From NCBI GenBank assembly GCA_023078555.1, contig CM041200.1, forward strand, positions 1,682,001-1,746,000: a stretch of DNA of 64,000 nucleotides. The letters are read 5' to 3'. Shown here piece after piece: positions 49,037 to 64,000 of this stretch. This stretch comes from Ulva prolifera (lineage: Eukaryota; Chlorophyta; Ulvophyceae; Ulvales; Ulvaceae). The stretch's first letter is position 1. Every line of letters begins with the position of its first letter. A program made the position numbers and the translations under genes. The notes beneath the pieces were generated by a model. The model was not told the origin of the DNA and searched no databases. It saw only the letters and a list, made by a program, of their open reading frames with translations.

Positions 49037-51138
49037 GCGGGCAGACCTGGCCTCAGACTGATGCACCTGACCAGCAACCCGAGGGGGAATTGCGATGTCA
49101 GGGTGCGCAGCAGCACGAGCAATCGCACGCGTGCGATGCATGGTGTGCCTGGCCACCTCCGGGGTGTCCTAAGGTGGGTCACGCTGGATTATCTCCGCAG
49201 AGGAACCAGCCCCGAACTGTGGGGTGTACACCTTGGTGTCAGGCAGTGCGTCCTGTCTGAAAGTCGTATCCATGACAGGAACTCTAACGTGACCCGGGGG
49301 GGTGTGCAGCTGGTCACGCAGACGGCGCAACACTCCCCCGTCGTGCGTGGCATCATCCATGAATGGGGGGACATCACTGTCAGTCACGCGGACACCCTCA
49401 TCATCCCTCTCAAAAGCAACCGTGTAGGAGCTCGCAAACTCCGCAGGCACTTGTCCACCATAGCGGACGCATCGTACTTTCGTACGTGACGGATCATCTG
49501 ATCCGTGGTGCACATAACCTGGCGCACCACCACAACCCCACCCCCAGTAACATCCCGAGCATACACACGCTGCATGCTGGGGCCCAGCCCAGCACCAACC
49601 CAGTATGCAACCATACCCCGCGCGGAGAGTTTCCGCAACTTGTCATCCCTAGGGTATGCATTCACCTCAACCCCCCACGAACGCTGCTAGCGCAACAGAT
49701 CTTGGAACACTTCCACGGAGGTGTCCCTGAAGAAAGACATATAGAGAATGATATCCCTGTCACAAGACCTGACGAAAAACTCATCTATTCCTGTCATGGC
49801 AAGCAAGTGCCACTTCCGTTTTTTCTCCTCCTTCAACTTATCGCGCTCAGCCTTTTTCATGCGCTTGTTGGCCCTCTCAGCCTGCTGAACATCCGCAGAT
49901 GTATTGGCAGCTCACTGGGCTTTCTGTGAACTCATCATTGTCGACAGTTTATCATGGCACATCGCAGTGCATGGCGTGAGGTTGTGACCATGGATACCGC
50001 TGGCGAGGCATTCAATCCACAGGAAAAGAGGAAGGCCGCTCGCAAGCAGCACAGCTCGGAGTGCCTCAAAGGCAATTCCGATCCTCCGCTCGATCATGCC
50101 ATTACAGCGATGATCAGCTGTGGGGGTAGTGCGGTGAGTGATGCCACGACGCTAGAGGTAGAGCAACAAGGCCTCGACCATGAACTCGTCTCCTTTGTCG
50201 GTGTGTAGGATGCGCACACCCGGTTCACCTGGCTTCACCACATGTACCCCAATGCGCTCAATGATGTAAGAGATCATGGCCGCAGCCTCACTCTTCTTGC
50301 GCACACCGACCACGAAAGAATAACGGGTGAAGGCACACATCACAAACACAACATATTTCACACCACCGATTCCTACTGGAGTAATGGCAACGGCTAAATC
50401 GGCATGCAGTTGCTCACCAAAGAACTTCGCCTGGCCTATGAGCTCACGATCATTGGCAGAGTAGTTGCTTGCAGGCACTTTGCCAATTCTGCATCCGTGA
50501 CAACGATTTCCCATTGGCTCAGGGTCAACTTTCAAATGCAAATCACAATAAAAATCAAAATTCGACTGCATTATTTTCAAACCCACGTTGACTGGTGAAA
50601 AGACAGATGTGCTAAGAAAGCAGGTTCCAGCAGGTAGGCGTCATGTGGGACAACAGCTCCCCCATCATTGGGGCGCTTGATGTCAATTGCCGCAGCAGCC
50701 ATATGCCACCACGTCTGCTGGTCCTCCACAACAGAAGTTGGGCTGCTCTGGTTGGACCAGATCACCCCCCTATTCACCGGGTGACCAACCAGAACAGGCT
50801 TTGTATCGACACTCAATGTAAACGCAAAGACGGTGTATCCATCTCGATCTAGCTCTTGATATTTGGACGCATCCTCAATATCAGTATCCATATCACCAAG
50901 ACCAGGGACATACAACACACTCCTACGCGTGTCTAAATTCATTTGCTCATGCCGAAGACCCATTGTACTCACTATATTGTATGGACACTCAGGGGCATAG
51001 TAAACACCAGAGATTTCCACATCCAGAGGATGCTTATTCCCACGCTTATCCACATAAGTGCCCAGGTTCACCTGAATGGTTCCCCTGCCCATGATGGGGA
51101 GCTTGCTTGGTCCCGCAGGATTGGCAGTCCTCTGGCAC

Positions 51139-51416
51139 TGTTGTGAAAGTGCCTCGTAGCGCACAAGGCATGTGCACATGCGAATGCACGCACGGGCTGA
51201 CACGTGGCAGTCACCAGCCCGCGAATGAGAAGACACATTCCAGCTCTCTGTATAGGTCGAACAAGGTCATGGCTCAAGTATTTGACTCAGATACTGACCA
51301 TGCAGATGTGATCCCAGATCTCAGGCGTCATGTGCTAAGTACTCCGCACACATACTTAACATTTCGCCCAACTAAACTTACGGTATGACGCTTCCACTCG
51401 CGCTTGCATTCGAACA
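51139..51416 (-). repeat. Solo LTR, family 2, copy a (278 bp) with TSD
   Basis: Reading on the minus strand it begins TGTTCGAATG and ends TCACAACA, with TGTT/AACA inverted ends. It is flanked by the 5-bp direct repeat GGCAC (51134-51138 and 51417-51421). It matches 61105-61382 with no length change and about ten substitutions. TG...CA ends with a 5-bp duplication are the mark of an integrase-made LTR insertion. It sits in the protease region of the minus-strand copia element. Confidence 0.9.
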
Positions 51417-52152
51417 GGCACGGACCGTACTCAGTGAAAATTTCGCGACTGCCCACGACATGCATGTCAGACCCAATGTCTATAATGAAATTCCAAGGCA
51501 ATGACGCATCAGGCGTTGGATATTCTTCAGGCATTTCTACAGCACAGACATCTTTGGCTGCAGCCTGTTTGCGCTGGGGGCAATTCGCACGTAAATTTAC
51601 ATTAATGTCCTTTGTTCTTGCAGAAGAAACAGTTCCTTATCTCCTCGCAAGGAGACTGGCCTACCGCGAGAGCGGCGACTCTAGGACTGTCGCCATGAGG
51701 ATGCTTGCGCCAGCCAGGGCCAAATTTGCCCGCAGGCGCACCAGACCTAGCCTGCAACCGATGTTGCTTGAGCAAGTCAGCATGTTCAGTCAAGCGTGCA
51801 ATGATTACGTGTGGGGAAGAGTGGAGAACTTCGCCGCGCACGGCGTTGACCTCCTCCCCCACTTCTAACAGATTCAATCGAAGCCATCGCTGGCCCACAT
51901 CGACACCTAGTGCCTCCAGTTGAGTGTACACATTCATGACATCACCACAGTAAGACCCCACGTCTCTGTTTTTCTGTGAGAATGCATTAAAACGACTCCA
52001 CTGTCTGTGGATCTCGGCTTTAGTGCTAGGCCTATACTTGGCAGTCAGATAGGCCCATGCTTCACACAGATGTGACATGCGATAGACAATTGTCCTGTCC
52101 GCGTCAGGCAAAGACATAAGGACTTGAGTTCTTGCTCTAGCATAGACACGCC

Positions 52153-52513
52153 TGTCACAATGCATGAGCCTGCGGGCAGCAGTGTGGTGACAGGTGCACC
52201 CATGCACGGACGATCCGCGGATCCAGTGCAGGGGTAAGCCGCCAGCCGGGATTGTCTCGATGTAGTGAGGGAGATCCTGCGAGGGTTTCCCGCCGTAACC
52301 GCCGTAATGTTTGAGTGTTCAGTGTGCATATAAGGATGTGCACACTGTGATCTGTAACCATTCTTCTTACTGTCTCACGGTATTAGCAACTTATCTCTCT
52401 AAGCGTTCCTCGGTTCTACCTCTGTGCGCAGCAGGTATGGAACGCTGGCTGACCTGATGTGACCTGAACTGAGACTGCGTGTCTGACCTGACAAGATGGA
52501 ACCGTTTCTGACA
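52153..52513 (-). repeat. Solo LTR, family 1, copy b (361 bp) with TSD
   Basis: The ends are TGTCAC and CTGACA on the plus strand, flanked by perfect 5-bp direct repeats ACGCC (52148-52152 and 52514-52518). Copia Gag coding sequence lies on both sides, so this is an LTR inserted into an older element and reduced to a solo copy. Its homologues are 48687-49036 and the shortened 53265-53409. Confidence 0.9.
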
Positions 52514-53264
52514 ACGCCGTTCGTCCGCGGACGGTGCATGCTGCAACAGATGGTCTAGCTCAAACTTACTTAACCACAAGAAGACTTTCTGCTCGTACGC
52601 GACGAAGCTTTCGGTCTTACAGTTCCACTCAGGCGGTTTTCCTTTCGACAAATCAGGCTCGTTACGCCCTTGAGATGCACGCTGCGCTTCGGTCAACGTT
52701 TCGAGTGTGAGGCGGGACTCAGTGTGACCGTGATCGTTCACTACATGAGAGGAAAAGGGCACCTGCTGGCTGCTCTGCCCAGTTTGGGAAGAGTGTCGTG
52801 GTCGGATGACTCGTCCGCCACGAAGTAACATGCCCGCGGGCTGTTCCTCGTCAGGGAGCTGCTGGTCAGCGTCCCTTTCGACGAGTGGCTGCTGATCAGC
52901 CGCACCTTGCCTTTCCTCGCGAGGAGAGTTGGCATTGGAAAGATCGAGATTGGACATCCTGCAGTAGGATAGACGATTCTTTGTTGCGCGCAGCAACTAA
53001 CCGATTGGTGGCTCGCAAGCCGACAGGTTGAGAAAGTAAGCGAACGCATTCGCTTTTCCCAACGCTGATCATTTGAAAGACAAGCGTCTCGAATTGTATC
53101 TAACAACAATATGCTAGGAGACCGCCCAATGATGCCTGCGCTTGTGACTGCGGTCTGAGCGCCGGCAGAACAGTGGAATGCCTGCCGTGACTGCGCGAAG
53201 ACTTTGGCCAACGGCTTCCTGAACAAGACCACAACAGACATGACGCAAACATTCACCGATACCA

Positions 53265-53409
53265 TGTCAGAAACGCTATCTTATGCAGGTCAGACGCGCA
53301 GTCCTCATGCAGGTCAGATCAGAACAGCCAGCATCTCATACCTGCTGTGCACAGAGGTAGAACCGAGAGATTCTAGGAGGAGATGCTAACAAGCTCATGC
53401 ATTGTGACA
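53265..53409 (+). repeat. LTR, family 1, copy c (145 bp, internally shortened)
   Basis: It begins TGTCAGAAACG and ends CATTGTGACA in the plus orientation, opposite to the other two copies. The first roughly 125 bases and the last 15 align with copy b; about 200 bases of the middle are absent. No flanking duplication was found. It could be the remains of the 5' LTR of an element or a separate insertion. Confidence 0.65.
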
Positions 53410-55718
53410 CTGCCATCACAGGACTCTGAATATGTGTTGTAATCCGGTGAACGAGTTGATCATAACGTTACACTGTTGTCCTAACAGACTGTTGATGATG
53501 CATATTATAGCTGTGCACGCACTATATATATGCTTCATGTGCATCAGCCACACTGTGTCGCATTGTCCAAGACAATCAAACACAGCACAGAGCATCACTG
53601 TGCCCTCAAACCTACAACCCACGCGGTGGGCTTACAATATACATGCATACCATCACGAACCTCTAACAGGTACCTTGTGATGCATACACGTCAGATGTGC
53701 ACTATTACTGATGCCCACTGCAGCAGGTACATACGTAACCTGCGCATGCATACAGTACAACACATAATATCTCGCGCCAGATACATAGGCAGCGTAGATA
53801 TTACAACAATATGTCCGTGTGTTTGTCTCCCGTGAGGATGTATGGAGTGCACTGCGTGCCAAGTATATGCCTAGCAAAGAGGCCGAGTTCAGGTCCCCGT
53901 GGGACAGGTTCTCCCGTGTTGTACTCAAAGTTCATAGAGCCACGCAGGTAGAAGAATACTGCACATATATTATGTCCTTAGTCAATCAGCTGACTGCTGT
54001 CTGTGCTCAGCCTGCTCAGTACCAGGTGAGCAACAAGCTGTTCGAGCCTCTCGGTAGGGAATTTGTATCATCGTGTAGTGAGCAAGGAGGTCGTGATTCC
54101 TGACTCAGATAGCTGCCATCACGACTCACGTGCGGGCATTAGATGCCTGTGGACCTCCCCACGGGGTAGGACGTGATCATGGCCCTGGAGGTAGAAACCC
54201 ACAACAGCCACAGCGCCCTGAAGTTGCTGCCGTTGCTGCCAATGAGACCCGCACATGCTACGTGTGCAAGAAGGCAGGCCATCTCCAGAAGGACTTCCCG
54301 GATATCCATCCGGAGGTCAGAAAGTTCCTCTCTGAGCATGCAGCTCAACCTCGCGGCAACAGCACCGGACGAGGACGCGGACGCGGACGCGGACGCGGAC
54401 GGGGAAGAGGTCCTTCCGTCGCTGCACTGGAGATTCTAGGTGACGGATTCAACATGGTTGATGTTGCCTGCTTGGGCAAGCTGTGCAATTTTCTCATAGA
54501 CAGCGGATCTCAGGCTCATGTGATCCGTAATCCTGAGATGTTCGTCTGCATGCGGAAATTGAGAATCCCGTGCATCCAGCCTGTCGGTGACGAGGATATC
54601 CCTGTCGTGGGCAAAGGAACAATTTGTTTCAAAGTAGATTCGTATGTGACTACGGGTGGTGATGTGACGGAATTAGTCCCAGAGATCCCGAGCTGTCTGT
54701 ATGTCCCTGCATGCCCCTTCAACATCTTGTCTACGGAGGAGTTGAAGCATGAGAATATTTTCCTGCAAACGCGTGCTGTCACGGAGCAAGGTGATATAGT
54801 CATCATTCCAGGCTTCTCCGACCAGGCCCTAGGCCACAAGGAGGGCAGGATTAACCGGTCCACAGACGCAAAGAATCGGCCTGTACTTTTCATTGAGACG
54901 GTTCAGGGCAAGCCCATCCTAAGGGGTGAGCAATTCAATAGTCCTAGTGCATGGTCCTCGAGCAATGCCTTGGCAAAGCTCGAGAGTGACGAGACCGATC
55001 TCTGCAGAGTAGCTGCATTGACTAGCAAGGCACAGCATGTTCTGGGTGCTGCCAAGCTGAATACAACATTTCTGACACATCTGAGTCTACAAACGGGCAC
55101 ATCCATTCTGCAAATGATGTCCAAAGCTGAGGTGTATCAAGGTCTAGGAATAAAACCTGATGTGGTGAAGGAGAATCTAGGTCGCTGCCATGGTTGTCGC
55201 CTAGCCTCCCATGATTCCGGCTCTAGTAATCAGCATGGCACGAGTGAAGAACATGAAGAGGCCCAATGGCCTGGTGCATGACTGCATGTTGATGTTATGG
55301 GTCCCATTTTGCCTGTAGGGTTAGGAAAAGCGTGGAACATTCTCATAGTCGATGAGCATTCACGTTACAGTTTTGCTGGTCCAATGGATGCGAAGTCTAG
55401 AGTGCCACAGCTGCTGGTTGAAACAACTGAGCACATACGGTCCAGTGTTCTTCCGCATGAGTTCGTTGGTGATGAGGGCGTGAAGATCACACCTAGAGTC
55501 ATGGGTGTACACGGAGATCGTGGTGGAGAGTTTCAGGGTCACAACATTCAAAATTATTTCTCAGAGAACGGGATATCGTGGGAAACATGTGCTCCTGGAC
55601 ACCATGAGGGCAATGGTGTAGCAGAGCGTACGTGTGGTGTCACCTCTGGCAAAATTCGTGCTGCAATTCTTCCCACGGATCTAACCCGCCAGCTATGGCC
55701 GGAAGGGGCGATGTGTGT

Positions 55719-55787
55719 AACGTAAAGTAAATCTGAATTTACTGAGCCGTATCCTATTGGACATTGACAACTCCGAATTAACGGGAC
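55719..55787. repeat. Copy 2 of the ~70-bp repeat, with 5-bp TSD
   Basis: It matches 36348-36419. It is flanked by the direct repeat TGTGT (55714-55718 and 55788-55792) and lies between the integrase core and the downstream part of the copia element, as expected for an insertion. Confidence 0.7.
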
Positions 55788-57155
55788 TGTGTCAACCATT
55801 GCACTAATCTTATGCCTAGCACTGCTTTAATGGCTAGTGAAAAGAGAAAGTTCCTGAAGAAGAATTTATCCGATGCGATTGTCAATCTCAGAAGAGCAAA
55901 AGGTGTAGAGTGCTCGCAGTGAAATCGAAAGGTGTGAGTAACAAGCCTGCTCCGGCTAAAGGTGATAAACTTATGACTGAAGATGAGATCACGGCAGAGG
56001 CTAAGCGTGGCGAGAGTGAGCGGTGCAATAGACTCTAGGAAAACACTAATTTCCGACTTGTGGTTCCGTATATGGTCTTCTACGGGAGATCATTGAATCT
56101 TGAACGATTCAAACTGCTTGTAGAGCAGATGCGCCCATGGGGTTTGACAGTGTATTTCTATCAGATAGGCCAGGATGTACGCAGACTAGACGCTAGGGGA
56201 GCAAACGCTGTGTGGGTAGGTCTGGGGCAAGGCCCACACATGAACACGGTTTACCTGTCCGTACCAGGGGGCGGCAAAGTGATTGAAGTGCGGCAAATGG
56301 TGTATAGCGCTGCAATGTTGCGCGAGTATATTAAGATTTTCGATAGCGTGGAGATAGGGCTCATGCCGTCAGCGAATAGGAGTGAAGTTGAAAAACTAGA
56401 ATTCAAGCCCAAGATGGCGGAAAAGGTGTACGCGCCCCCGTTGTCGGATGTCGATGATGTTGCTGCTCGCAAGCGGTACATGCAAGTGCACGGCGCTGCT
56501 GAGTATGATTTTGACGGGATGGCCATAGGCAAGAATCTTGTTGACCTGCATGATTCGGAGTACATTGACGATAGCCTAGCCGCAGAGTTTGAGCATGTAG
56601 TTCCGGAGTTGGGGGATGACCTCGGTTCAGGGGAACTACAACGGAAGACTAGACAGACAACTCCAGAGGTAGTGGAGAACGTCCATGCGGTAGTGCGTAG
56701 TCAGGAGCTACGCCGAGGTGCTGCTGATTTTCACCTCCAGCCAGGTGAGAACATCAAGCACGTCAACAATCACTCCAACGTCGACCGCGTTCGGGAACTT
56801 GAGCACTCCAACATCGACATGTCACCATCGGCCGCACACAACAGCCAAAGGGCGAAGAGCTTCACATCTCCGGGGAGATCTCTCGCCGGCGACTATGGCA
56901 GAGTAGATGAGGTGAGTGTCCGCGACATGGAGATACAACATCAACCCAGCTCTGCCGCAGCGGGATCAGCTGGCCCGCCGCGAGGGGCCATGGGAGATAT
57001 TGGGGGACCCATCCCCAGGGCTTCAGGCAAACGGGCTACGGCTCGCAGCTTGGAGCATGGGATGGACTACATGCGCGAGCATCTGGGTGGATTTATCTCC
57101 AGGGGAGAGGTAAGTCCGTGTTGTGGGATATCCATATCTGGGGATCCAAGAATAT

Positions 57156-57184
57156 AGATGACATAATAATAGGAGGAGTCATCT
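57156..57184. repeat. 7-bp inverted repeat
   Basis: AGATGAC at 57156-57162 and GTCATCT at 57178-57184 can pair around a 15-base AT- and purine-rich loop, 21 bp left of the tRNA-like sequence. Confidence 0.6.
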
Positions 57185-57205
57185 AGCACAGGACTCGTTG
57201 CTTCA

Positions 57206-57262
57206 GGTGAGCCCTAGTGGTAGAGCATGCCGTCTGTACTCATGAGGTCACCGGTTCAATTT
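57206..57262 (+). other. tRNA-like sequence with A- and B-box resemblance
   Basis: The stretch GCCCTAGTGGTAGAGC resembles the D-arm/A box of a tRNA, and 28 bases later GGTTCAAT resembles the B box/T loop. The anticodon stem does not pair well and no acceptor stem closes, so it is not a working tRNA. It could be a tRNA-derived SINE fragment or a decayed tRNA within the copia element. Confidence 0.35.
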
Positions 57263-58200
57263 TTACTTACATTTCTGCCGCGCGACTTCACGCGGTGGCA
57301 AGGTACGCTCCCCTCCACGTCGTCATGCACAGTTAGCATGCTTACCAGCTCAGGCACGCGCATTAACCCCTGTGCACACTCGATGAGACTAACACGCGTC
57401 TTGACAGTCCGGCCCTAAACTCACCTGTCGCTGGGGAGTCTATGCATCCTGCTAAAGAAGTTAGTTTTGATTTGCATGACACTGCTGCTGATGCCCAAGG
57501 GCAGGAAGCGCAGTCGGCCCAAGTTAGACACAAATGGAACCCGCTTGTACGCAAGCGCTTGATTCCACATGCAGATGTTGCTGTCGTAGAAGCTAGTGTT
57601 AATATAGAGCATAGCACAGTGAGTGAGCAGACAGTAGCACCAAAGGTAGCCGACAGATCAGGCATGCTGGCTAAGGCTGACAGTGCAGTGACTAGTGCAG
57701 AGGTGACCAAGGATTGAAGCAGGCTGCACGTGAATGGCACAAGGCCCTTGCACGTTTGCTAGTGAAATGGGTTTTGTGAGATCACATTCGGACCCAGCAC
57801 TGTATGTTAGAAAAACTGGTAGGTGTTTCATATTTCTGTGGGTTGATGACCTTTTAATTTTTGGACGGTCTACCGGCGTGAAGGAATTGATCGATCAGAT
57901 TCTCAAAGCATTTGAAGGTAGAGACCTTGGCGACTTGTCGTGGGCACTAGGTGCCTCAATCACCAGGCATAGGAAGCAAGCAGAAGACCATCTCTATCTC
58001 AACAACAGAAAGTAGTGAACCTGTTTGAGAAATGCAGCATGACAGATTGCAGAGCTAGTCCGACTCCGCTGGTGCCAAGGCAGCAGTTGAGGAGTGCTAA
58101 GTGTTGTGAGATACATCTCACTAGGCGCATGCTGGCGCGGCACACCTGTAGACACCTAAGGCTGCAGCGCATACAACAACAGGTATCCTCGTAATTTGGA

Positions 58201-61200
58201 CTGGCGTCTGTACATCGCCATTTACACATTATATACCACGTTAATTATTATCTTGCACATATGTGCACGCAATTTATGTACAGCGTCCTGTACACTCGAA
58301 TCACTATGATACGTGTATGCCAGACACCTTACTGGACGTGGCTACGAGGGCACCAACTCGGCCAGCTTACGCAGCCATGCTTAGTTGGCACTGTATTATA
58401 TCGGATTACCTGGACCAGCGCATTAGCGGTCATGTCCTACCCAAGCTTACTGGTATCTTACAAACCGGTTCGCATGCAGACCTCCCATGTGTATTTGTGA
58501 ACTCACGCATGTTACGCGGCAGCCTTGGGGCTTCGCATGCATGCCCGCTGTTAGCAGGCACGGCTCCCACATCGAACACGAAATCAGTGTGCGATCAGCC
58601 TTCAGGCTCCGAAGGCCACATGCTTACTTTCTCCCGCAGTTACTCGGGATCTGGGGTCTGCGCTCTGCGCGATCCGGCGAGGCCAGCTCTAACAGGGCGA
58701 TCGACCTGGGCGCACACACCATCGGTATTTATACCGAGCGCTTGCTGGGACTAGGCACGTTTTACAGTGATCTGGTTGGGGCGCCACCCATTCGAGCATC
58801 ACATTGTATTGACTTCTTGCCTCTTTTCGCATCTGTCTGTTCTATTTCTGTCTGCCTATACAGCCTTCGTGCTGCGGCGTTTAGCCCATTTTATTCAGCT
58901 GTCCTCGCGCAGTACCGTAGGTCCGTTCCGTCCCAGCGACTCAGAGACCTCAACAGGTATCGGTGACCTATAAGATCTCTGTCCTGATTATTCCTTTATT
59001 ACTTGCAGATGGCCAGCGAATTAGCTGCCCAAGCCATGGAGGACCCGGTTACGTGGGAATCCGCTCGTGAGTCGATCGTTACATGTGTTGATTCGATTTT
59101 TTCTTTAGAACAATGTCAGAATCCTGGCCTGGCTAGCTTCCCCCAGGAAGACTTAGACTTTATTCGACGTCTGTTTAGCATGCTGCTGTGGCTGCAAAAC
59201 GTTATGGTGAATTGTGCTGCTGACTTTGACAAGCCGGCGTTCATGGCTGTGTGCCGGGATGCCAGACAGATTTTCTTAGAGTCTGACCTACCGGATGACG
59301 AGGTACCCTTCCGACCTCTGGAGAAGAAGGTGTCTTCGGAAGCTGTTAAGCGTGCCCTTAAGGCGCCGGGTGGATTTTTATGCGCGGCTGATTGGGGCCC
59401 CGTGGACGGCCCCGTGCGCAACTTGCTTAGCTCGGCGGCCATGACATTGTTGGCCTGGCTCGGGCCTAGGTTCGCCAAGCCCCTGCTTGATCTGACTTTT
59501 GCTTTCTCCACCAATTACAAGTCGTTTACGCTTGCCATGTTGGCATGCCTTGTCCGTACCGACTTGTTAGGACTGCTTGGCGTCAGGGAGCGGACTACGA
59601 AGTTACGTACCACGCCCGCTGTTAACAGCCATGGCGCTGCACTAATTAAGCTTGTGAAGGCCTCTGAGCCAAAAGTTTTTAATATTGTGCATGCAGTATG
59701 GCATGCGTTTACTAGTGCACGTTATTGTCTCAAAAGCGTGTCTGAAGTGTTCCCAACGGTCCACGTTTCGGAGATTACCAAGGCGGAGGCACAGCAGTAT
59801 CGGGACTGCTCGGCAAGCGTCACCACCCAGGTGCAGTCAGTCTTACCCATCCATTCATCACTGCCTGAGAGTAACCCGAATTTTCTTGATGACAGCTCAA
59901 ATACGTGGTTTCGTAGTGCTCAATATACATTTTCGTCGGCTCACATGCCCACAGCAGCCGCGTTGCGCGGCGATCCCCTATCCGAATTACGTTGGCACAA
60001 GTACCAAAGCGACGTTTTGCATGCACGCGCGAATTGTTTGCAATTATCAGAGAAGCAAGTCATGCAACATCTGACCACCACTTTTTCTTGCACTGACCAA
60101 CATGTTACGGTTGCGCAAGAAGCTGCTCTGAACCCTGAATGCACTGTCCGACAGTGGTTAGAAGTGATCAGAGACTTTTACTTCACCAGCGGTCAGTTCA
60201 GACATAATATTGAACACGCGTGGCAGCGGTATGACGCGGCCGACTCTGCTGATTTTAATGAGCTTATGCACCACATCAAAACTTACTATCGATTAATTTT
60301 CCTAGATTACACGCACATGCAAAGCAAGCAGTGCAAAGTAGTTTTTGCTTGCATTTTGTTTACAAAACTGCAGCGTCTAATGCAGCCCACCTGCAAATCG
60401 ACATTAGCTGATACCTTGCGCATGTTCTTACCCATGTCAACTTTACTAGAGAAATTTAACTTAGAATTGAAGCCGTTAGTGGGCTTGAGTATTTCAAGCG
60501 GACGCGACCGCTGTTAAATTCATTACATGGGCTGTTACACAGCTTCAACAAGTCCGCGAGTCGGCCAACACGGTCAAATGTTACACGGGTGATGCACCTG
60601 ATAGCAGGATCGATTATGCTATGTTAGTCTCCAAGCGCAAATCACAGGCACCTGGCACGCACGAACCCAAGAAGCAAGCCGCGGCCGCGATCTTACCTGG
60701 CCCACCGGCTAACAACCGCAATGGTTTGCAGAAACGCGCGGCTCCCCCAGGTCCCCTATCAGGCACCAGGCAGCCACTTATCCCTCAACTTAAAGAGCAG
60801 GCTAACTCAACGGACGAGGCTACGTTCAGGCCATGGCTGCAAGAGTTTGTTCAAAACCCTGTGGTGCCGGCTGACCTGCGCAAGGCACTTAGCCTTGAGT
60901 TGCAAGGTGGCCCTACTTCGGTCCATGGCGCATTAGCTGCAGCAACGCACCCACTGCCTCCAGGAATTGAACCCACATTTATGTTTACGGCAACACGCAT
61001 GCTGCGCATGCATTATCTGTACCCGTTCAAGCAGTGTTGGTTATGCCCGTCGGCTAGGAACAATGCCAACCCCCAGGCTGGCCATCATCAGGTTGACCAC
61101 TGCCTGTTCGAATGCAAGCGCGAGTGGAAGCATCATACCGTAAGTTAAGTTGGGCGAAATGTTAAGTATGTGTGCGGAGTACTTAGCACATGACGCCTGA

Positions 61201-64000
61201 GATCTGGGATCACACCTGCATGATCAGTATCTGAGTCAGATACTTGAGCCATGACCTTGTTCGACCTATACAGAGAGCTGGAATGTGTCTTCTCATTCGC
61301 GGGCTGGTGTCTGCCACGTGTCACCCCGTGCGTGCATTCGCATGTGCACCTGCCTTGTGCGCTATGAGGCACTTTCACAACACTGCCCCACTTTTCTTTC
61401 ACTTGTACCGCAGGCGTCTCGTGACGCATTCTTCGGGGAGGCTTTTAACAGGCGGCGCAACCTCACCCCGCTGCCCCAGCGCTACAACCCGACCCGGCAC
61501 CGCGATCGCGACAACAAGAGGGACCGGTGCGAACCCAACCGAAGAGGCTCTGATACCCAGGCCAAACGGTCACGCCCCGAACATCATCACCATGTCCGCT
61601 GAGAAGCTGGCAAGCCATCCATTGCGTGCCCACAATGGGCGGCTGAGCCTTACAATCTGGCACGAAAGTTAATACCATTAAACGCGACTTGTTTCAACTC
61701 CGCATTTATGTCTGGGTCCCTGTCCTTGTTTGATCTACATGACCTTAAAGAAAATATTGTAGTGACTCTTCCATGCACAGAAGCGGCGCAGGCTGCAGTT
61801 CGCCACATGCACACCATCAACATGCATGACCACAACATTACCGTCGTTATCCCCGCACGAATTTTTGACTCGTCAGCATTTGTTCCGTTTTTACGTCAGC
61901 ACTCTCCGTCCATGGTTGACGAGGCACGGCATTTGCTGGAGTATATGTCAGGCAACCCTGTTCCAGGACACCAGAAGTACCACATATGCACAATGATCAC
62001 GAATCAGCGAGTGTCAATTTTGCCAACCAAGAAAGCTGCAGCGGCGGTTTTGGCACAGCAAGCGAGTTTCGTTGATCTTATATGCACGATGCCCACGCGC
62101 ATTCACAACCACTTCGCCAGGGCGTTGGTGGACACGGCAGCAAACCATAGCATGATCACTCGCGGTTTTTTGGAGCGCCATAACATCCCCTTTCTATCTA
62201 CACACAGCGTAACGGTTGGAATTTCAGCATCGGAGGCACCATGTTTAGGGACTGTCTTGTTAAGTGCGCGGGTAGGACGACGGGTCATTACAGTGAAATT
62301 CACAGTAGTGGATTCGCTGCCCGCGTGAGCGGATTCATTCCACCCAAACGAGGCACTATTTGCACTTGATGTGATATCAGCCGTCAACATGTCCATCACT
62401 TTTAAACATCCGCGCATTGTTATTCATGTCCCACCAGTAAAACATGGACGCAAGAAGACGGGACAGCCCTACTTCCATGTCATTCACGCCAGCCACGCAC
62501 AAGTCACAACGGAATCCAGTCCACAGGAAGATTTCTTAATATCGCAACGTGAACTGAAGAGTCTCACAAACAGGGCGAGGCGCGGTCAGCAGCCATTGTT
62601 TGTGGCACACATTAAATCCTCACATGCAGCAACAACAAATGTTAGTTGTGCCAGCACAAAACGAACCGGATACCTATCACGACAAAATGCTCCGGCAAAT
62701 GTCCCACAAGACACATCATGTATCCCTGCTTGCATTAAAGCGGTTGTGGACAAACATCAAGCGCCTGGAGGCACGTTAGGGCCACCACCCCCCAACACAT
62801 CTGCATCCGGATTTGAAATGGACATTGACTTGTTGCCAGGCGCTAGGCCCAGAGCGGCGCGCCAGTATAGATTAACACCGAGGGAACAACTGGAACTGGA
62901 AAAGCAGCTTAATCATCTAATCTCCATGGGGTGGGTGCAACCCTCTGTTTCTCCTTGGGCTAGCTGTGTCCTTTTTGCCCCCAAACCTGGCGGCAAGTTG
63001 AGACTTTGCATTGAATATCGGTATCTGAACGAGCACACAATTAAGAATACATACCCATTGCCACGTATCGACACGCTGCTAGACCAGCTGCAAGGGCACA
63101 AATACTTCTCAGCATTGGATTTGCAATCAGGCTACCACCAAATTCGTCTCTCGGAGTCAGCTGGCCCTAAAACTGCTTTTAGAACACCGGACGGCCTATA
63201 TGAGTGGAAGGTCATGCCGTTCGACTTGTCCAATGCGCCCTCGGTGTTTCAGAACGCAATGAATGTTGTCTTGAAAGGACTTATAGGTAAAATTTGTCTT
63301 GCTTATCTCGACGATATTGTGGTTTTGGCACGATCGGAATCTGAGCATGCGACGAACTTGAATCTAGTGTTAACACGATTAGCAGAGCATAACTTCTACT
63401 GCAACATGGATAAATGCCAATTTGCACTGCAAGAGATTAAGTACCTAGGACATGTTGTCACGGCGGACACAGTCCAGCCGGACCCATATAAAGTTCAGGT
63501 GCTACAAGATTGGCCGGTTACGGACTTGCAAAAATCGACAAACAATATTAGATCGTTTCTCGGATTAGCGGGTTACTTCAGGAGGTTTATTCCGAAGTTC
63601 CCAACCTTGGCCGCGCCTTTGTTGCAGCGTATCAGCTCCAAGGAGCAGTTACCTTGGACGCTACAATGCGAACAGGCATTTACAAACATTAAACAATCTC
63701 TGATCAACGCTACTGTTATGCGCCACCCGGATCTTAACAAATCATTCCACATCTATACTGACGCATCAGATTATGCTTATGGTGTTGTGCTGACTCAGGA
63801 ACATGAGGATACTCTCTGTCCTGTTGCGTGGATTGGCCGTAAATTGAATAAGGCTGAAGAAAATTATTATACACTAGAAAAAGAGCTTGGAGCGATTGTT
63901 TTTGCTTACCGCCAATGGCGATGTTATCTGGAAAACAATCACACAGTGTTTATTCACTCTGACCACAACCCCCTTAGATTTCTACAAACTCAAAAGAAGC
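58201..64000 (+). mobile_element. Ty3/gypsy element, runs off the right edge, broken
   Basis: The LTR and leader are probably within about 58.2-59.0 kb (exact ends not found). A long Gag-type open frame spans 59009-60517, followed by a basic and zinc-knuckle-like region around 60.6-61.1 kb, a solo-LTR insertion at 61105-61382, an Arg-rich tail to 61.6 kb, and an aspartic protease with A-L-V-D-T-A-A-N-H near 62.13 kb. A pol frame from 62389 stays open to the window end. It has reverse transcriptase (L-R-L-C-I-E-Y-R-Y-L-N; A-Y-L-D-D-I-V-V-L near 63.3 kb), connection and RNase H (I-Y-T-D-A-S-D-Y-A-Y-G near 63.75 kb). Order RT then RNase H with a Y-L-D-D core marks Ty3/gypsy. It is broken in a few places, yet pol looks well kept, so it seems younger than the two copia elements. 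Confidence 0.9.
61105..61382 (+). repeat. Solo LTR, family 2, copy b (278 bp) with TSD
   Basis: It begins TGTTCGAATG and ends TCACAACA, flanked by the 5-bp direct repeat CTGCC (61100-61104 and 61383-61387). Same length as the copy at 51139-51416 and about 96 percent identical by eye. It splits the Gag region of the gypsy element. Confidence 0.9.

Follow-up and report, generated by a model that had tools for sequence, protein, structure and literature searches.

The two 278-bp repeats analysed here, which interrupt retrotransposon sequences in a 64,000-nucleotide window of the Ulva prolifera genome (C5:1682001-1746000), are very probably solo LTRs of a 748-bp TRIM that would be moved by Ty3/gypsy proteins. 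TRIMs are an ordinary, already known kind of element, of which this family is a new member. According to the course of events that we propose, the TRIM RNA would be packaged by Ty3/gypsy proteins, its reverse transcription primed by initiator-Met tRNA (iMet), and its integration carried out by Ty3/gypsy proteins. Recombination between LTRs would then remove one LTR together with the internal part, leaving a solo LTR with its target duplication (TSD), and unequal exchange would give rise to tandem arrays; copy B would have landed in a gypsy element of the helper group. The primer site (PBS) may at times be rewritten from whichever iMet tRNA primed, a step of which we are less sure.

Two solo LTRs and their short parent

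Both copies are 278 bp long, with TGTT...AACA ends and exact 5-bp duplications (GGCAC and CTGCC; Table), all as described in the first-pass annotation, and the separate exact TSDs uphold its reading of one solo-LTR family inserted twice independently. About ten differences between the copies had been estimated, and 9 positions differ. The PBS and PPT of full copies define the element sense, relative to which the strands originally assigned (A minus, B plus) are reversed. As a solo LTR cannot be dated from its own pair, the proposed youth of both copies was judged on the scale of the family, on which it holds, given 4 (A) and 5 (B) differences from the nearest sampled LTR. No genuine flanking similarity extends beyond the ends: the repeat arms span 287 nt because the TSDs, in element sense GGCAC and GGCAG, have four bases in common. 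Other genomic copies have the same end points, with exact 5-bp TSDs at 42 of the 49 structurally complete copies among the fetched loci and no exact one at the remaining 7.

Table. Features of the window around the two TRIM solo LTRs
Feature	Position	Strand	Basis
TRIM solo LTR copy A, 278 bp	51139..51416	+ (element sense)	sequence comparison
Target duplication GGCAC left of copy A	51134..51138	.	sequence
Target duplication GGCAC right of copy A	51417..51421	.	sequence
TRIM solo LTR copy B, 278 bp	61105..61382	- (element sense)	sequence comparison
Target duplication CTGCC left of copy B	61100..61104	.	sequence
Target duplication CTGCC right of copy B	61383..61387	.	sequence
Copia ORF piece broken by copy A, first part inside LTR	50577..51236	-	weak Pol_BBD match, E 0.0006
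Copia gag-like ORF, same host as copy A	51602..52207	-	weak Retrotran_gag_2 match, E 0.00026
CTAAG left of gypsy-host LTR	58097..58101	.	same five bases after the LTR at C5:1755437-1756291 (L071)
5' LTR of gypsy host of copy B, TGTTGTGAGA...CTCAACA	58102..58955	+	97.8% over 855 bp to L071 LTR
Primer site GGTATCGGTGA of gypsy host	58956..58966	+	complementary to G-type iMet tRNA, 11 nt
Gypsy-host ORF broken by copy B	60621..61148	+	no Pfam match; gag by position
Aspartic-protease-like ORF of gypsy host	61708..62328	+	E 0.0001, below cut-off
RT + RNase H of gypsy host	62371..63999	+	RVT_1 E 2.1e-37, RT_RNaseH_2 E 1.9e-32

The placement of copy A in a copia element is borne out by flanks that match copia gag and Pol_BBD, weakly and below the curated Pfam cut-offs. 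For copy B, assigned to a gypsy Gag, the strong downstream RT and RNase H confirm the gypsy part, while 'Gag' is a positional label, since the interrupted ORF has no Pfam match. Once the empty sites of A and B are rejoined, one reading frame is open across each.

The parent element lies outside the window, as expected, but it is not the gag-pol element that had been envisaged: same-orientation LTR pairs in the fetched loci enclose a 192-bp non-coding stretch. In the genome searched (88.9 Mb, 44 contigs), several LTR matches among the best 40 of 285 candidates scored lie 470 bp apart, and the 30 loci read contain LTR pairs separated by 192 bp, which gives a parent of 748 bp (278-bp LTR, 192-bp non-coding internal part, 278-bp LTR). 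The internal part, for which a first search scored the best 40 of 47 candidates, opens with GGTATCG[A/G]TGAG directly after the LTR, closes with GTGAAGGGGGGAGG directly before the next one, and is nearly identical among the 12 full-length units read directly from 11 loci. At 22 LTR-internal-LTR (L-I-L) loci, direct 278-bp LTRs flank an internal part of 189-196 bp; a 12-nt iMet PBS adjoins the 5' LTR, and the PPT, GTGAAGGGGGGAGG, adjoins the 3' LTR exactly at 38 of 42 junctions and with one mismatch at the other four. Judged by its length, the 192-bp internal part is too short for gag-pol.

Plant and algal TRIMs are likewise described in the survey of Gao et al. (2016, PMC4717578) as having short LTRs, a short non-coding interior, a PBS, a PPT, solo copies and L3I2 arrays, and are reported there from Chlamydomonas, Volvox and Chondrus; TRIM-classified sequences are also reported from a haptophyte (PMC5963040). 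The family differs from Cassandra in that its LTRs are not 5S-like: locus L009, searched up to E 5, has no match to 5S rRNA. A search of one array locus for Rfam RNAs (5S, tRNA, other) yielded one weak match, outside the element.

Solo LTRs of large elements are common, and the two copies might instead descend from an ordinary autonomous gag-pol element, the 748-bp copies being its deletion derivatives. Two loci (L024 and L032) could be taken as remnants of such a parent, since the LTR there continues into the internal part for 45 or about 20 bp before other sequence takes over, but in the ORFs beside the L024 LTR nothing is recognisable by eye. Moreover, the genome-wide search for the LTR 3' end joined to the PBS (up to three mismatches), which could have exposed a partner, returned 46 matches, of which 44 are TRIM units and the other two (L069 and L070) have no LTR, and the 42 PPT/LTR junctions of the TRIM can be told apart from those of gypsy type. 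Although a rare or diverged parent could escape an LTR search in which the best 40 of 285 candidates were scored, we regard descent from a gag-pol element as very unlikely and a TRIM parent as strongly favoured.

The internal part has some further features. L069 and L070 (C2:3780641-3782241 and C2:3859669-3861269) carry TRIM internal bases 1-148 preceded by 7 bp resembling the LTR end, in two 1.6-kb stretches that are 99.75% identical. The G form of the primer site (see below) creates GTGAGT, and GTAAGC...CTCTAAC...CCACAG follow (L015:1874-1879 onwards, by eye); judging from these motifs, the TRIM internal part could be a candidate for splicing as an intron.

Copy number, insertion sites and arrays

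The genome contains 244 LTR 3' ends and 247 LTR 5' ends (up to three mismatches in 26 nt; positions were given for 100 matches of each pattern) against 0 in the reversed control, which excludes a chance origin of the matches. Comparing solo with paired copies, about 80 LTRs touch an internal part (6 LTRs inside arrays having been subtracted) and about 165 of the roughly 245 do not. As truncated pieces are counted in, about 165 is an upper bound, and the solo fraction is thus up to about two thirds. After merging of overlaps, the fetched loci, a non-random set taken as best scoring or chosen by PBS pattern, resolve into 72 distinct elements or fragments: 24 solo LTRs (19 with an exact TSD), 22 L-I-L loci (20 with an exact TSD), three L-I-L-I-L loci (all three with a TSD), one four-LTR array without a TSD, one truncated array, and 21 others that are truncated or nested pieces. 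The two LTRs of the 22 L-I-L elements differ at 0 (11 elements), 1 (7), 2 (2), 3 (1) or 4 (1) positions, with a mean of 0.29%. As for insertion targets, 8 of the 42 loci with a TSD have a stretch resembling a retrotransposon ORF no more than 1.4 kb away, a minimum given the few query ORFs and the 7 loci with less than 250 bp of flank on each side; we claim no target motif.

Four loci are LTR-internal tandem arrays. Cassandra elements likewise form such arrays, usually with about three LTRs, for which unequal crossing over and template switching have been proposed (PMC7215508). The array with three LTRs at C3:1859116 and the element with two at C3:1869405 have the same TSD, TGCGG, and, over 1 kb, flanks of 99.4% and 98.2% identity; the number of LTRs thus changed at a single insertion after its duplication. 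At C4:3721928, the middle LTR has 2 differences from an identical outer pair; mobility of a ready-made array would fit, in a single case.

Nested and clustered copies were also seen. Two solo LTRs with the same TSD, TTAGA, lie 939 bp apart at C2:10488841-10490057 (L074 and L035), within a tandem repeat of gypsy ORF and LTR pieces. At C3:1834924-1836426 (L022, with the TSD CCAGC) and C5:5954977-5956291 (L059), a TRIM is inserted into the LTR of another TRIM copy, and at C1:11639674-11642341 (L011) TRIM LTRs of opposite orientation lie 2.1 kb apart, with CGATC common at one end.

A candidate Ty3/gypsy helper lineage

A gypsy partner lineage was reached through the PPT pattern. Out of 115 PPT/LTR junctions, 42 belong to the TRIM and 73 do not; all 58 of these 73 that were listed read GTTAAGGGGGGAGG|TGTTGTGAGA or a near variant. 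The LTRs at these gypsy-type junctions are about 800 bp (L072, L073) or 855 bp (L071) long and end in ...CTCAACA. Within the window, the conserved PPT has 0 matches within two mismatches.

On the PBS side, we named three gypsy families by eye from their LTR ends. In family I, the LTR end is followed by GGTATCGATTCTGC in 16 of the 52 matches listed, the remainder being other flanks. The LTR/PBS junction 13-mer AACAGGTATCGAT, searched in any context with a pattern that excluded G at either outer position, occurs 46 times (29 in TRIM copies, 15 in family I, 2 elsewhere), and the G-form junction AACAGGTATCGGTGA 26 times (12 in TRIM copies and 14 in other contexts). A family I copy at C4:634900-640372 (L075) has one open ORF with RT, RNase H, an integrase zinc-binding domain and a Tf2-1-like SH3 domain, together with a protease (E 2e-5) and a Chromo domain (E 6e-7), the integrase core (rve) falling below the cut-off; protease, RT, RNase H, integrase and then chromodomain follow each other in the chromovirus order.

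Taken together, the TRIM is probably mobilised by Ty3/gypsy elements with which it has LTR termini, PBS and PPT in common. Similarity between the TRIM and the gypsy families goes no further, in the LTR or in the internal part, so that the helper would be a lineage and not a single element; the common PBS and PPT could also represent convergence on shared signals. A TRIM with helper-type elements of common termini, PBS and PPT is rare in the survey cited above, which gives larger related elements for 11 of 289 TRIM subfamilies (PMC4717578).

The host of copy B belongs to this picture. At C5:1754600-1756600, 8.6 kb from the window, L071 comprises the PPT GTTAAGGGGGGAGG and an LTR followed by CTAAG, and it would represent the 3' LTR of the gypsy element holding copy B. 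The two hosts had been called unrelated, which holds when one is compared with the other. The LTR terminus, PBS and PPT of the gypsy element around copy B are nevertheless those of the TRIM itself, so that copy B has probably inserted into a relative of its helper. By eye, the gypsy host is itself inserted beside copia-like sequence.

Primer site and initiator-Met tRNA

The TRIM primer site is complementary to iMet tRNA over 12 of 12 nt, as against 9 nt in family I and 11 nt in the gypsy element of the window. A separate iMet pattern matched 19 places, three in full and 16 incompletely. The full genes on C4 (L116) and C8 (L133; read by eye) end in CTCATCGATA and that on C10 (L118) in CTCACCGATA; with CCA added, these ends predict the PBS forms GGTATCGATGAG and GGTATCGGTGAG. 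Both forms occur in the TRIM: among 44 units, 30 have GGTATCGATGAG (A), 12 have GGTATCGGTGAG (G), and 2 have another change. Counted by locus, with L069 and L070 left out and two A loci being one duplicated insertion, 28 of 38 are A and 10 are G, close to the 2:1 ratio of the iMet genes (binomial p 0.40). Neither the TRIM nor families I-III have a T to pair with tRNA A76; in all of them the final A of the LTR precedes GG. An internal stretch, ATGGGCCCATCA, is complementary to iMet positions 24-35, with 1 of 500 shuffles as good; extra tRNA contact sites are known in Ty1 and Ty3 (PMC5371799). These yeast elements are likewise LTR retrotransposons primed from the 3' end of initiator-Met tRNA (PMC5371799).

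Among 40 tRNA genes, the best uninterrupted complement offered by another tRNA is 7 nt (60 matches listed; 1780 first-look candidates). The 16 incomplete iMet places match the 5' part of the tRNA up to the anticodon loop, mostly ending in ACCT, and two sampled from them (L117, L119) are not tRNAs by ARAGORN. They could be copia-type half-tRNA primer sites read on the other strand; in the window, a copia half-tRNA primer site has 0 matches.

Self-priming as in Tf1, with the RNA 5' end pairing with the primer site, is scarcely credible. The LTR stretch ACTCAGATAC could, by eye, pair with the site if a two-base bulge is allowed, but the longest uninterrupted LTR complement is 5 nt, a length reached by 1863 of 2000 shuffles, compared with the 12 of 12 nt matched by iMet.

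The two primer-site forms are scattered over the family. When a tree of 26 elements is computed with the first 12 internal bases excluded, the primer form requires 6 changes against a shuffled mean of 6.3-6.4, and 258 and 242 of 500 shuffles are as low, so that it behaves like shuffled labels. The starred branches force at least 3 changes, with the bootstrap unsettled; a single-clade test (p 1e-64) is not taken at face value, the data being short. In contrast, of 21 other common columns, 20 cluster on the tree, no more than 1 of 100 shuffles giving as low a value, and INT146 (23 of 100) is the unclustered exception; LTR columns are counted twice here, one LTR being a copy of the other. INT8, the primer-site variant, occurs in all four combinations with each of 6 markers, compared with 2 of 12 among other INT-INT and INT-LTR pairs. 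This scatter, and the recombination with all six markers, suggest that the primer site is copied from tRNA. We therefore put forward, tentatively, that in this genome the primer site of Ty3/gypsy-mobilised LTR elements is rewritten from the priming tRNA, TRIM copies recording the iMet form that was used.

Two other explanations compete with such copying. The variants could be old alleles that recombination among co-packaged RNAs, or gene conversion, has shuffled, an account that we consider somewhat unlikely. Some mixing or recurrent change is indicated by INT39, which forms four combinations with two LTR markers, and the poor clustering of INT146 points the same way. However, the INT8 markers include INT39, only 31 bp away, nearly all other common columns do cluster, and both forms recur within three other iMet-primed element groups with a two-base spacer and a full TGG (12 G/2 A, 11 G/1 A and 4 G/2 A; with 3 G/2 A among ungrouped elements, 37 elements over all groups, which were formed by eye). 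Ordinary mutation kept by selection for pairing with one iMet form is, in our view, unlikely. It would require a single base to have changed independently at least 3 times (6 on the best tree) in 26 young copies, whereas the remaining 11 positions of the primer site vary in only 2 of 44 units. On the other hand, the G form wobble-pairs with A-type tRNA, which makes switching forms cheap, and each of the three gypsy families seems to have a single form fixed: A in family I (16 of 16; 0 G), G in family II (6 of 6) and in family III (5 of 5), with none of the A-form 13-mer matches having a family II or III end.

The same families constrain the copying that we favour tentatively. With families I and II, the two tested, each showing a single form, random copying in each cycle from a 2:1 pool is unlikely, and the differing iMet match lengths (12, 9 and 11 nt) disfavour full copying of the tRNA end. 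Copying may hence be occasional or TRIM-specific, or the reading may be wrong. According to PMC5371799, retroviruses differ from yeast elements in whether primer tRNA sequence is inherited, and Ty1 and Ty3 are reported not to copy the site from the tRNA, whereas the TRIM pattern suggests that copying may occur. In the titles and opening abstract lines covered, among which subscription journals were few, we found no description of natural primer-site variants that follow tRNA gene forms.

A TRIM and a plausible helper lineage within one genome make a rare pairing. If the proposed reading of the primer site is true, the two natural tRNA forms would provide a tag for the inheritance of primer sequence in Ty3/gypsy-type reverse transcription, and the outcome would be contrary to the reports on yeast Ty1 and Ty3.
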